A DNA stretch of 64,000 nucleotides from NCBI RefSeq assembly GCF_019880245.1, contig NZ_CP082286.1, positions 2,808,521-2,872,520 on the forward strand, read 5' to 3'. The translations under genes were made by a program, and so were the position numbers. The number at the start of each line of letters is the position of its first letter. Within the stretch, counting starts at the first letter, position 1. Of the stretch, positions 57,943 to 62,938 are shown piece by piece. A model generated the notes under the pieces. It was not told where the DNA came from and made no database searches. It saw only the letters and a program-made list of their open reading frames with translations. The DNA comes from Halobaculum roseum. Its GTDB lineage: Archaea > Halobacteriota > Halobacteria > Halobacteriales > Haloferacaceae.

Positions 57943-58413
57943 CTACGGCTCGACGCGTAGCGTCACTGTCAGCGGGGCGCCCCGCTCCAGCGCCGTCACG
58001 AGTCGTCGGCCGAAGTCCGCGGCGGCCTTGTCCGCCTCGATCATGACCGTCCGCTCGTCGACGTAGTCGCTCGTCCGGCCGACCATGCTCCGGTCGCCCT
58101 CGTAGGAGAGGTCGGGATGGCCGTGACCCGTCACGGTCTCGGTCGCGTCGGCTGCGCCGAACTCGGCAACGATCGTCGCCTCCCGGGAGCGACACGCCTC
58201 GACGAACGAACGCGGCACGTCCGCGGGGGTGGCGTCCGCCTCGACCGCGAGGATGCAGTCGCCCGCGGGCGTGAGCCAATCGTCGCTGGTCACCTCGAAG
58301 GTGCTCTCGTGCTCGGCGCTGACGTGCTCGTGGCCCGACGCGCGGACGGTCACCTCGCGAACGGGACCCGCGGTCGTCGTCGCGTCCGACCCGCTCGACG
58401 CCTCGTCGGTCAT
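57943..58413 (-). CDS. DUF371 family protein
   Basis: A 156-residue protein. After an acidic N-terminal stretch (residues 1-17), one DUF371 domain is evident: RASGHEHVSAEHESTFEVTS near 24-43, DDWLTPAGDCILAVEADATP near 44-63, and VTGHGHPDLSYEGDRSMVGR near 93-112. The family is conserved in archaea; conserved His, Asp and Cys residues suggest an enzyme or metal site, but no function is established. It lies next to nth and 46 nt from the DUF368 gene. Confidence 0.85.
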   Translation of the reverse strand: MTDEASSGSDATTTAGPVREVTVRASGHEHVSAEHESTFEVTSDDWLTPAGDCILAVEADATPADVPRSFVEACRSREATIVAEFGAADATETVTGHGHPDLSYEGDRSMVGRTSDYVDERTVMIEADKAAADFGRRLVTALERGAPLTVTLRVEP

Positions 58414-58459: not shown

Positions 58460-59551
58460 TCAGTCCAGGTCGACGCCGCCGGCGAGGCGGTCGAGCCCGA
58501 CGACCAGCACCGCCCCGACCGCGGCCGCGACGACGAACTCGCCGCCGACCGCGGCGGTCCACGCGCCGACCTCCTCGCCGACGCGGACGACCGGCGCCCG
58601 GAGCGCCCCGACGATGAGGCCGATCAGGAACGCGAGCGTCGCCTCGCGCCGCGCCGCCAGCGCCGCTCGGACCGCGTGCGCGACGGTGAGCAGTCCGACG
58701 ACGCCGCCCGCGAGGAACGCGACGACCGGGACGCCGGTCTCGACGACCGCTGCCGTCGGGCCGCCGGTCGCGAGCGCCAACAGCGAATCGACGAACACGG
58801 ACAGCGCCTCGGTCATGCGGTCGTACTGCCCGAGGATGACGAGCAGGAGCGACCCCGAGATCCCGGGGAGGATCATCGCGCTGACCGCGACCGCCCCCGC
58901 GAAGAACGTCGCCAGGGCGGTCTCGCCGAGGGCCGCCGAGGCCTGCCCGGAGGCGACGAACGCCAGCGCCGCCCCCCCGATCGCAGCTGCGGCCCGACCG
59001 CCGGTGTCGACGCGGAACTCCCCGCGGAGGACGACAGCCGACGCCCCGATGAGGCCGAAGAAGAAGCCGTACGTGAGCACCGGAACGGTCTCCAGCGCGA
59101 TGTGCAACGCCCGCGTCACGGTGAGGATCGCGGTGGCGATGCCGGCGCCGAGCGCGAGCAGGAACCAGCCGTCGACCGCCGTCCAGACCGCGCGCAGCTC
59201 GTCGCGGTCGCCGAGCAGGCCGTCGAGCGCGCGTCGCGCGAGCGACGGCGACGCGGCCGTCACCGCGGCGATGAGGCGATCGTAGATCCCGGTGATCAAC
59301 GCGATCGTGCCGCCGGAGACCCCGGGAACGGCGTCGGCGGTCCCCATCGCGACCCCGCGGAGGTACGTGCCGAGCGGTCCCTCGTCGCGCTCGATCAACT
59401 GTACGTCGTCTGCAAACGACGGTGACGCGTCGGCGTTCGTCGAGCGACCGGCCTCGGACGGCTCGGCGGCGGTCGCCGATGCATCGGCCGCTGCCGTTCC
59501 CGTCACGTCAGCCGACTCGGCACCGTCACCGTCGCCGCCGGCGTCCGTCAT
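58460..59551 (-). CDS. DUF368 membrane protein, probable polyprenyl-phosphate translocase
   Basis: A 363-residue membrane protein of the DUF368 family. A 65-residue acidic/Ala cytoplasmic head precedes about eight to ten membrane segments. The two signature repeats are MGTADAVPGVSGGTIALITG near 70-89 and MILPGISGSLLLVILGQYDR near 225-244, an inverted-repeat transporter pattern. Bacterial DUF368 (PopT-type) proteins carry undecaprenyl phosphate back across the membrane; that is established. In archaea the analogous cargo would be dolichyl phosphate. It starts immediately after the aglB stop (0-nt gap), which supports this inference. Confidence 0.85.
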   Translation of the reverse strand: MTDAGGDGDGAESADVTGTAAADASATAAEPSEAGRSTNADASPSFADDVQLIERDEGPLGTYLRGVAMGTADAVPGVSGGTIALITGIYDRLIAAVTAASPSLARRALDGLLGDRDELRAVWTAVDGWFLLALGAGIATAILTVTRALHIALETVPVLTYGFFFGLIGASAVVLRGEFRVDTGGRAAAAIGGAALAFVASGQASAALGETALATFFAGAVAVSAMILPGISGSLLLVILGQYDRMTEALSVFVDSLLALATGGPTAAVVETGVPVVAFLAGGVVGLLTVAHAVRAALAARREATLAFLIGLIVGALRAPVVRVGEEVGAWTAAVGGEFVVAAAVGAVLVVGLDRLAGGVDLD

Positions 59552-62500
59552 CTACGGTGCGACCGTGCTCCGGGTAGGGGCGCGCACGGCCGGCGCGGCC
59601 TCACCCGCGGCCGAGCCAGCGAGCGATCCGTCCGTCGACGAGTCGCCGCCCGCCGTCAGCGAGTCCGCTGACGCCGAGTCAAGCCCCTCCAGCGAGTCGA
59701 ACTCCGCGGGCAGGGAACTCGTGTTGTCGGAGCCGTCGGTCGAGTTGTTCGTCTCCGAGCCGTTCTGGGCGCCCTCGGGCGCGCGGAGGACTTCCTCCGA
59801 GAGCGTGACGGTCGCGGTGCCGTCCTCGTCGCCGTTGACCAGTCCCTCACTCACGTTGAACGTCCCCTCGTTGCGGACGATGTACGCAGACTCGTTGCTC
59901 TCGACCTCGCCGGTGACCGTGTACGCGCCCGTCGCGCGAACGCTCACGTTGGTGTAGCCGTTCTCCGGGCCGTACTCGTCGTAGCCGGTCGTCGAGTACG
60001 GGACCGTGAACTCGAACTCGCCGTCCTCGTTGGCGGTCGCCTGCTGCTCGTAGGTGAACGTCGAGGCGTTGCCGCCGGTGCCGGCGTCGGGGACGCGCAT
60101 CTCGACGGTCGCGGTGACCGTCTCGTTGGGGTCGGCGCCGTCACCCTCGACGGTCGCGCCGGGCACCTTCTCGAACGTCTTCACCCACTGCGGCTGCGTC
60201 TGCTGCAGCAGCGACGGGCGCAGCCCGAGCGACTGGGACTCCTGCAGTACCGTCCGCTGGTACTGACTGGAGGAGTACGCCGAGGTTTCGGACGTACTCA
60301 CCAGCCGGTAGTGTTCCATCGCCGGCACGGACTCGCGCGGGAACGCCCCGACGCCGCCGATCTGCGCGGTGCCGTCCTCCTCGACGAACTCCTGGGCCGC
60401 GCTCTCGTTGGCGAACGTCCGAATCGCGCTCGCGTTCTCGCCCTGCGGCAGCACCTTGTAGGTGGTGCCGTCCTGCGCGGAGACCGTGTCGTAGTCGAAC
60501 ACGATCACGCGGTCGCCGAACGGCGTCTGGACCGCTGGGTCGGCGCGACTCCCGTGGAACAGGTACAGCCGCACCATCTGGCTCTCGTAGTAGCGCTGCG
60601 TCTTGTCGCGGAACGCGACGCCGTACTGAGTCCCCCGTTGGGTTTCCTGTGCGCGCAGCGTCGGCGAGTAGTAATCCGAGGCGTTCGTGTCGTCATCGAA
60701 GACGACGGGCGCGCCGAACTTCGAGCCGACCGTGACCATCTGCCAGTCGACCATGACGTAGCGCATGTCTTCGGCCTCGCCGTCGTCGTCGATGTTCGAG
60801 AGCACCTCGTCCGCGTCCTCTTCGCTGGGCGCGAGGAGGTAGTTCGCCGCGGAGCTGGCGCCCTGCTGGAACGGGTTCGCGTGCGGGATGCGCTCGCCCT
60901 GCGTGGTGATCCAGTGGCCGTAGTCCCACCAGGACATCACGCCGTAGGTTCCCTCTGCGTAGTCGTAGTCGTCGTCAGCGGGCCGCTGATAGGTGCCGTA
61001 GTAGTCGAGGTCGTCCGCGTTGCCGGCACCTCCGAGGTTCCCCTCGGCGGGCGTGTTGTCGTTCATCCACTCGAGGTTCTCGTCCCAGACGGTCACCGAC
61101 CCCGGGCCGGTGTTGTTGCCGACGCCGACGGCGGTGTTCGTCCGGTCGATGGACACCTGTCCGGTGTTCCCGAGCGACAGCGGGACGACGAGCACCGGGC
61201 CGAGCACGACCAGCACCGTGAGCACCACGGCGATGATCTGGTACGTCTCGACGTCCGGCATCGAGAGGTCCGCCGAGAAGTCGATCCCGATGACCGCGAG
61301 GATCTCCCGGAGGAAGTAGGCGTTCAGCCCCGCGACGGCGACCGCGAGGTAGTAGTTGAAGCGGACCTGCGTGAACGCGGCGGCCGTGATGAACGCCGCC
61401 CACACGAACACGAACAGGTGTTCGGCGTCGTAGCGAACGCGCGCGGCAGCGCCGAACACGAGCAGGGCGACGAGTGCGAGTCCGAGCACCTGCGGGTTGA
61501 ACCCGAGGCCGCTCGCGAGGTCGTTGAAGATCGGCGAGCCGACGAAGACGAACAGGACGACCAGCGCCGAGGCAGCGAGGTAGTAGTAGTCGCTCGTGGT
61601 GCCGCGCTTCCACAGCGGCTTGACGAGCATCCAGACGGCCGCCGCGAGGGCGGTGATGAACGCGAAGCCGTACTCGGCGATAACGACGCCGAAGCCGCCG
61701 TAGTACTGGACGAGCCCTGACTGGAGGAACGGTTGGGCCTCGCCGATGGTGCGGGTGGCCGCGCCCGCGGAGAAGCCGACGAACCGGAGGAGGTTGCTCT
61801 CGATCGTCGTGAACGGCGCCGCCTCGACGAAGATGACGAGGAGGACGCCGACCGCGCCGAGGATGCCGACGATCCCCGCGAACGCGTGGTCGTTCAGGCG
61901 GTCGTCCGCGAACTCGCGGGAGTCGAGTTGGCGCGCGAGGAACGCGAGGAAGACGGCGCCCGCGGCGGTCGCGAGCGCGAAAGCGGGCTGGATGAGGCTC
62001 ATCGCGGTCGGAGAGAACGTCGCCTCCTCGAACTTGAGGAGTGCCATCAGGGCGGCGACGACCATCGAGATGACAGCGACGAACGCGACGTGGTCTGGCG
62101 AGCGGTCGCCCGCGTAATCGGAGACGGTTTGGAATGCGACGTAGGCAGCAAAGATTCCGAGCAGGAGGACGGCCGGGGGCCAGGTCCAGATGTAGAGGCC
62201 GATGGCGACGCCTGCAAGCGCACTCCAGTATAGAGTGGGCTTCAACTCGTCCCACTCGCTCGCCTGCACGAGTTCCCAGATTGGGAGGTCCCGCTGCGCG
62301 ACAGCGAGCGCGACCATGAGCGCGACGACCGCGAACGCCTGGAAGAACGGTTCCGCGACGTTGTGGTCGGCGAACCCGACGAGGCCCCGACGGAGGAACG
62401 TTCCTGGGAGGAGCATGAGGATGACCGCGCCGAAGAGTCCTGCAAGGCGGCCACCGAGGCGCTTCCCGATCAAATAGGTAGGAACCACGACGAGCGCGCC

Positions 62501-62938
62501 GAAGACGGCGGGCGCAACGAGGAGCGTCTTGGCGACGAGCGCCTCGGAAGGGGAGCCGAGGCCGACGATGAGGGCGGCCGTGGCGATCAGTTGGTCGTAT
62601 AGGGTACCGAACTGGCCGGAGTTGGTTCCGAACGGGTAGTACGTCCACGGGTCCCATGGCATCGTCGCCGGCCAGTTAGCGACGGTGTACCGGACCTGTC
62701 TAAGGTGGTACCACGCGTCGTTACCGTTGAAGTATACCTGGCCGTCGCGAATGAAGTTGCCGTAGGACTGGAGGCGGATCCACAGCATGAACGCGACGAT
62801 TGCGAGGAGCGCCGGCACATGATAGAAGTCGCGTACGACATCTGCGGCCGACTTCCCTGTAAAGGAGTAGTTTAGGCCTGGGACGGAAGAAGCGGGATTT
62901 CCTCCGTCCGGGGTCGTGTCGCTATCGCTTCGACTCAT
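59552..62938 (-). CDS. aglB: Oligosaccharyltransferase AglB (STT3 family)
   Basis: A 1128-residue oligosaccharyltransferase that transfers a lipid-linked glycan to Asn-X-Ser/Thr of secreted proteins such as the S-layer glycoprotein. About 13 membrane helices occupy residues 60-590. Loop EL1 has the catalytic Asp in YFNGNDAWYHLRQVRYTV near 88-105, and FADHNVAEPFF is the DXD-like second motif near 195. The catalytic WWDYG motif lies in MSWWDYGHWITTQGER near 670. The extracellular C-terminal domain is large with beta-rich repeats, and the tail (from about 1060) is Ser/Thr/Ala-rich. The first 30 residues are also disordered. Confidence 0.95.
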   Translation of the reverse strand: MSRSDSDTTPDGGNPASSVPGLNYSFTGKSAADVVRDFYHVPALLAIVAFMLWIRLQSYGNFIRDGQVYFNGNDAWYHLRQVRYTVANWPATMPWDPWTYYPFGTNSGQFGTLYDQLIATAALIVGLGSPSEALVAKTLLVAPAVFGALVVVPTYLIGKRLGGRLAGLFGAVILMLLPGTFLRRGLVGFADHNVAEPFFQAFAVVALMVALAVAQRDLPIWELVQASEWDELKPTLYWSALAGVAIGLYIWTWPPAVLLLGIFAAYVAFQTVSDYAGDRSPDHVAFVAVISMVVAALMALLKFEEATFSPTAMSLIQPAFALATAAGAVFLAFLARQLDSREFADDRLNDHAFAGIVGILGAVGVLLVIFVEAAPFTTIESNLLRFVGFSAGAATRTIGEAQPFLQSGLVQYYGGFGVVIAEYGFAFITALAAAVWMLVKPLWKRGTTSDYYYLAASALVVLFVFVGSPIFNDLASGLGFNPQVLGLALVALLVFGAAARVRYDAEHLFVFVWAAFITAAAFTQVRFNYYLAVAVAGLNAYFLREILAVIGIDFSADLSMPDVETYQIIAVVLTVLVVLGPVLVVPLSLGNTGQVSIDRTNTAVGVGNNTGPGSVTVWDENLEWMNDNTPAEGNLGGAGNADDLDYYGTYQRPADDDYDYAEGTYGVMSWWDYGHWITTQGERIPHANPFQQGASSAANYLLAPSEEDADEVLSNIDDDGEAEDMRYVMVDWQMVTVGSKFGAPVVFDDDTNASDYYSPTLRAQETQRGTQYGVAFRDKTQRYYESQMVRLYLFHGSRADPAVQTPFGDRVIVFDYDTVSAQDGTTYKVLPQGENASAIRTFANESAAQEFVEEDGTAQIGGVGAFPRESVPAMEHYRLVSTSETSAYSSSQYQRTVLQESQSLGLRPSLLQQTQPQWVKTFEKVPGATVEGDGADPNETVTATVEMRVPDAGTGGNASTFTYEQQATANEDGEFEFTVPYSTTGYDEYGPENGYTNVSVRATGAYTVTGEVESNESAYIVRNEGTFNVSEGLVNGDEDGTATVTLSEEVLRAPEGAQNGSETNNSTDGSDNTSSLPAEFDSLEGLDSASADSLTAGGDSSTDGSLAGSAAGEAAPAVRAPTRSTVAP

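Follow-up and report, generated by a model that had tools for sequence, protein, structure and literature searches.

Here we propose that the DUF368 gene at positions 58460-59551 (minus strand) of the window, a 64,000-nt stretch of Halobaculum roseum DNA, encodes a PopT-type polyprenyl-phosphate translocase that is expressed with the oligosaccharyltransferase gene aglB and returns dolichyl phosphate (DolP) to the inner leaflet, a reading to which we give a probability of about 0.7. N-glycans of Haloferax volcanii are assembled on dolichyl phosphate; AglB would transfer the glycan from this carrier to asparagine on the outer face and leave DolP there, and the DUF368 protein would return it to the inner leaflet for reloading. 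Because the glycan is carried on DolP, our reading of the established pathway is that AglB leaves a monophosphate outside and that no phosphatase is needed. We infer DolP as the substrate, inward as the direction of movement and N-glycosylation as the main client of the protein. Accounts of N-glycosylation in archaea lack the step of carrier return, and the eukaryotic counterpart of this step is, to our knowledge, likewise unsettled.

Both proteins of the pair are readily placed by profile. The 1128-aa product of aglB (59552-62938, minus strand) scores 887.7 bits against the archaeal oligosaccharyltransferase model TIGR04154 (cut-off 450) and 72 against PF22627 (cut-off 27), with PF02516 and PF18079 also above their cut-offs and a WWDYG motif in the translation; TIGR04154 and the AglB core domains together identify it as AglB. 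The 363-aa DUF368 protein, our putative PopT-like translocase, belongs to PF04018 with 207.5 bits (Pfam gathering cut-off 26), the sole family found in a Pfam scan at E <= 0.001, in which the DedA profile (PF09335) had no match. Against the NCBIfam equivalogs for polyprenyl-phosphate transporters, NF052564 and NF052563, it reaches 184.9 and 87.0 bits, under the cut-off of 400, as do seven further haloarchaeal and one methanogen DUF368 proteins; because of these scores we assign it to PF04018 and not to the equivalogs. In a 57-row alignment that includes bacterial and methanogen DUF368 proteins, the window protein carries all 19 invariant columns, many of which fall in VPGVSGGT and LPGISGS. The first signature motif, VPGVSGG (residues 75-81; 59309-59329, minus strand), contains the invariant P76, G77, S79 and G80, and the second, LPGISGS (residues 228-234; 58850-58870, minus strand), the invariant L228, P229, G230, S232 and G233. 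Furthermore, homology of its two halves is evident from hhalign (E 1.4e-13) and from a local alignment score of 116, where shuffles reach at most 83. The AlphaFold2 model of the protein (mean pLDDT 86.8) is all-helical and two-repeat, with helix breaks at the motifs (helices 59-74 and 80-86 at VPGVSGG in repeat 1; 212-226 and 233-239 at LPGISGS in repeat 2). These features are consistent with an internally duplicated, all-helical membrane protein that would have its two PG[VI]SG motifs at helix breaks. Structure searches with the DUF368 protein, in the PDB copies covered, turned up neither a solved homologue nor any significant fold match; BacA, considered as a fold relative, was disregarded at rank 24 with an E of 0.77.

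The minus-strand junction of the two genes (59549-59554) reads ...gca ccg TAG ATG acg..., with 0 nt between the aglB stop and the DUF368 ATG; the reading frames, coordinates and abutment put forward in the earlier note are all borne out. The choice of start codon decides the length of this gap, because a tail of ~58 residues precedes the conserved domain (residues 1-58; 59378-59551, minus strand). This tail is predicted to be disordered (pLDDT ~50 over most of it), is represented by gaps in most other alignment rows, and is found at such length mainly in Halobaculum-like members of the 57-row alignment. In three other loci (L010, L011 and L012, from two Halobaculum and one metagenome-assembled genome) the DUF368 open reading frame likewise begins exactly at the aglB stop, with N-terminal tails that differ in length, and since relatives with tails of unlike length start at the same point, the ATG at 59551 is credible. 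From the abutment or overlap of the reading frames only, we infer that aglB and DUF368 are co-translated. A closer association, in which AglB and a linked DUF368 protein form a physically coupled module and DolP passes straight from the AglB active site to the translocase, is in our judgement quite unlikely; if true, it would make glycan transfer and carrier return one unit. Long open frames in three genomes (G024, G134 and G224) had suggested an AglB-DUF368 fusion; there the genes are separate reading frames, in different frames or with a stop between them, and what extends the open frames appears to be read-through of GC-rich sequence upstream of the gene.

Upstream of aglB, on the same strand, lies a gene of the type I phosphodiesterase/nucleotide pyrophosphatase family (PF01663; 63161-63919, minus strand), whose true start is slightly outside this open reading frame (the full form has 302 aa in L022). 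A Wzx-type polysaccharide flippase and a sugar nucleotidyltransferase are encoded upstream of aglB in the same genome, outside the window (L022:18094-19584 and L023:9131-10001), and therefore aglB sits at the border of a glycan gene region; the PF01663 gene would form the edge of that region adjoining aglB, and may or may not be part of the aglB transcript. On the other side, a DUF371 gene (57943-58413, same strand) lies 46 nt beyond DUF368, and in two near relatives the neighbour downstream of DUF368 resembles it.

The pairing extends well beyond this locus. In a class sample of 292 Halobacteria genomes, in which both genes were located by profile (AglB match at E <= 0.001), DUF368 and AglB are each found in 289, with one DUF368 match in 266 genomes, two in 23 and none in 3. 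DUF368 is the direct, co-oriented downstream neighbour of aglB (profile edges under 900 nt apart) in 192 of the 287 genomes holding both, and within 2.7 kb downstream in 12 more, which brings the linked total to 204/287 (71%), a count over related genomes that are not independent of one another. Direct adjacency occurs in nine of the ten families with both genes. Because it is conserved in 192/287 genomes, chance pairing is excluded, and the absence of DUF368 from aglB neighbourhoods elsewhere, which the earlier note took as an outcome that would speak against its proposal, is not what this survey found. In 19 linked loci from several families, where a simple composition rule served to call genes, there are 17 groups of downstream neighbours (the largest with three members) and many groups of upstream ones (the largest with eight related proteins); since the flanking genes vary in this way, the aglB-DUF368 pair outlasts its surroundings. 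Among 35 directly adjacent loci, 17 have a possible DUF368 start between -8 and +4 nt from the aglB stop, and in 14 of these 17 the offset is exactly 0, -1 or -4 nt; both figures are biased toward abutment by the choice of the start closest to the stop. Two genomes (G074 and G090; L068 and L069) carry a short second DUF368 fragment right downstream of the linked copy, and in a small draft haloarchaeal genome (G021) AglB and DedA are present and DUF368 was not detected.

A position beside aglB is not obligatory: DUF368 lies elsewhere in 83 of the 287 genomes (far off along the aglB contig in 44, on a different contig in 39), often as a distinct paralogue clade. In a tree of 84 DUF368 proteins, all haloarchaeal ones form a single group (support 100/100) apart from the methanogen and bacterial proteins, and linked genes occupy several deep branches of the haloarchaeal part. 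Most unlinked genes fall in one nested clade of 29 rows (support 100/99), here called type B. Many genomes of families f3 and f4 have a type B gene as their sole DUF368, and other genomes carry one as a second copy; a few further unlinked copies, from one genus of family f1 and from isolated f4 and f10 genomes, resemble linked-type genes that have been relocated. The simplest history suggested by this tree is an ancient aglB linkage in haloarchaea, with a detached paralogue replacing the linked copy afterwards in some lineages. Since nearly every genome retains at least one DUF368, the function seems to be needed, and adjacency to aglB itself does not. The second DUF368 of a genome from f1, the family of H. 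roseum (G211; L056:1324-2418), nests among f3 type B proteins, suggesting horizontal transfer.

These detached copies bear on the idea that DUF368 serves a polyprenyl phosphate pool common to N-glycosylation and other surface glycans, such as exopolysaccharide; it would then not be a dedicated N-glycosylation factor, and the aglB link would reflect shared regulation. A clade that lies away from aglB and provides many genomes of two families with their only copy would be in keeping with such a pool, as would the type B genes with an oppositely oriented glycosyltransferase 2-like gene next to them (L077:4347-5258, L090:4134-5033 and L106:4193-5095 in f4), and the methanogen relatives found near a sugar-nucleotide epimerase. 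The linked state is nevertheless the commonest one and sits on several deep haloarchaeal branches, and we regard a shared pool as improbable.

The proposed role in polyprenyl phosphate translocation draws its functional support from H. volcanii, in which aglF, aglI, aglG and aglB are HVO_RS12035, HVO_RS12040, HVO_RS12045 and HVO_RS12050, and whose agl cluster has been described as aglJ through aglM (HVO_1531). The DUF368 gene of this organism, HVO_RS12060, partly restores alkaline growth of a Vibrio cholerae DUF368 mutant, vca0040 (Sit et al., 2022, PMC9876793). By locus-tag order HVO_RS12060 is two steps from aglB, and HVO_RS12055 between them is presumably aglM; if so, the DUF368 member with functional data is the agl-linked one, separated from aglB by one gene where the window DUF368 abuts it. 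This arrangement matches that of Haloferax-like genomes: in five examined Haloferacaceae-type loci aglB and DUF368 are separated by a gene for an AglM-type UDP-glucose dehydrogenase, one of them profiled (NF041297, 754.4 bits against a cut-off of 670) and the other four sharing its N-terminal sequence. By analogy, the rescue, which was partial and concerned undecaprenyl phosphate (C55-P) rather than DolP, suggests that the window protein translocates polyprenyl phosphate. VCA0040 and the PopT-type proteins belong to the same Pfam family as the window protein, and the bacterial rows of the alignment have both PG[VI]SG motifs and the duplicated architecture in common with it; the bacterial proteins, however, serve undecaprenyl phosphate and peptidoglycan, whereas the window gene is aglB-linked, in an organism that has no peptidoglycan.

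In view of the negative structure searches described above, one might suppose that DUF368 moves something else, either another anionic lipid or the glycan-loaded carrier in the outward direction. We consider this most improbable: outward flipping has been attributed to AglR/Agl15-type proteins (Wzx-type membrane proteins, which are credited with moving dolichol-linked sugars in this pathway and lie outside PF04018), the glycan gene region at aglB in this genome also contains a Wzx-type gene, and the H. volcanii member partly substitutes for a C55-P translocase.

Return of DolP by DUF368 as the preferred reading also has precedent in print. Sit et al. (2022) described DUF368 as a C55-P translocase, reported the cross-domain rescue and mentioned both dolichol phosphate and the enrichment of the family in Halobacteria (PMC9876793), and related NCBIfam models are already named polyprenyl-phosphate transporter. 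The earlier note's interpretation of DUF368 is partly supported by the conserved aglB linkage; its view that the step had no assigned gene in Halobacteria was too strong, a candidate having been given in that paper. No paper was found in a literature search that combined AglB with DUF368, and the synteny appears to be unreported in the literature searched. As far as that literature goes, the quantified class-wide aglB link, its AglM-interrupted form, the takeover by a paralogue and the correspondence with the experimentally tested H. volcanii gene are new. They join work on the agl cluster, which has been described up to aglM, to work on DUF368 translocases, two lines not connected in the searched literature. 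The presence of DUF368 beside the oligosaccharyltransferase in most of the class, together with the H. volcanii rescue, makes the proposal open to a straightforward one-gene test, at HVO_RS12060, in a species that is easy to work with.

A serious rival to this reading is redundancy with DedA proteins (DedA/UptA, PF09335), which are reported C55-P flippases of a different Pfam family that would act alike. These proteins might do most of the DolP return, with DUF368 being conditional or accessory (e.g., at high Na+ or a given pH) and placed beside aglB for expression matching. DedA is found in 75/75 Halobacteria of a phylum sample, often in 2-5 copies, and in V. cholerae it is in alkaline and Na+ media that the DUF368 protein is important (PMC9876793). 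Among other Halobacteriota (n=251), 11 genomes have both families, 36 DUF368 only, 113 DedA only and 91 neither (Fisher p 8e-5), so that DedA is present in 11/47 DUF368-positive against 113/204 DUF368-negative genomes, a comparison confounded by lineage; this rare co-occurrence fits what is expected of alternatives for one task. Other archaeal control genomes match DedA and not DUF368. Against this, DUF368 is kept in 289/292 haloarchaea and is the conserved partner of aglB, with no DedA gene recognised among the neighbours tested at aglB, and we hold a mainly DedA-driven return to be unlikely.

Outside haloarchaea, we considered an AglB link in methanogens and found none: in 20 sampled non-haloarchaeal Halobacteriota loci, searched also with the AglB profile, AglB does not occur within ~6 kb of DUF368. 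Several methanogen DUF368 genes adjoin an NAD-dependent sugar-nucleotide epimerase gene, profile-checked at L116:6947-7897 and L127:7216-8142, with epimerase look-alikes recognised by their N-terminus beside DUF368 in L117, L119, L124, L125 and L128.
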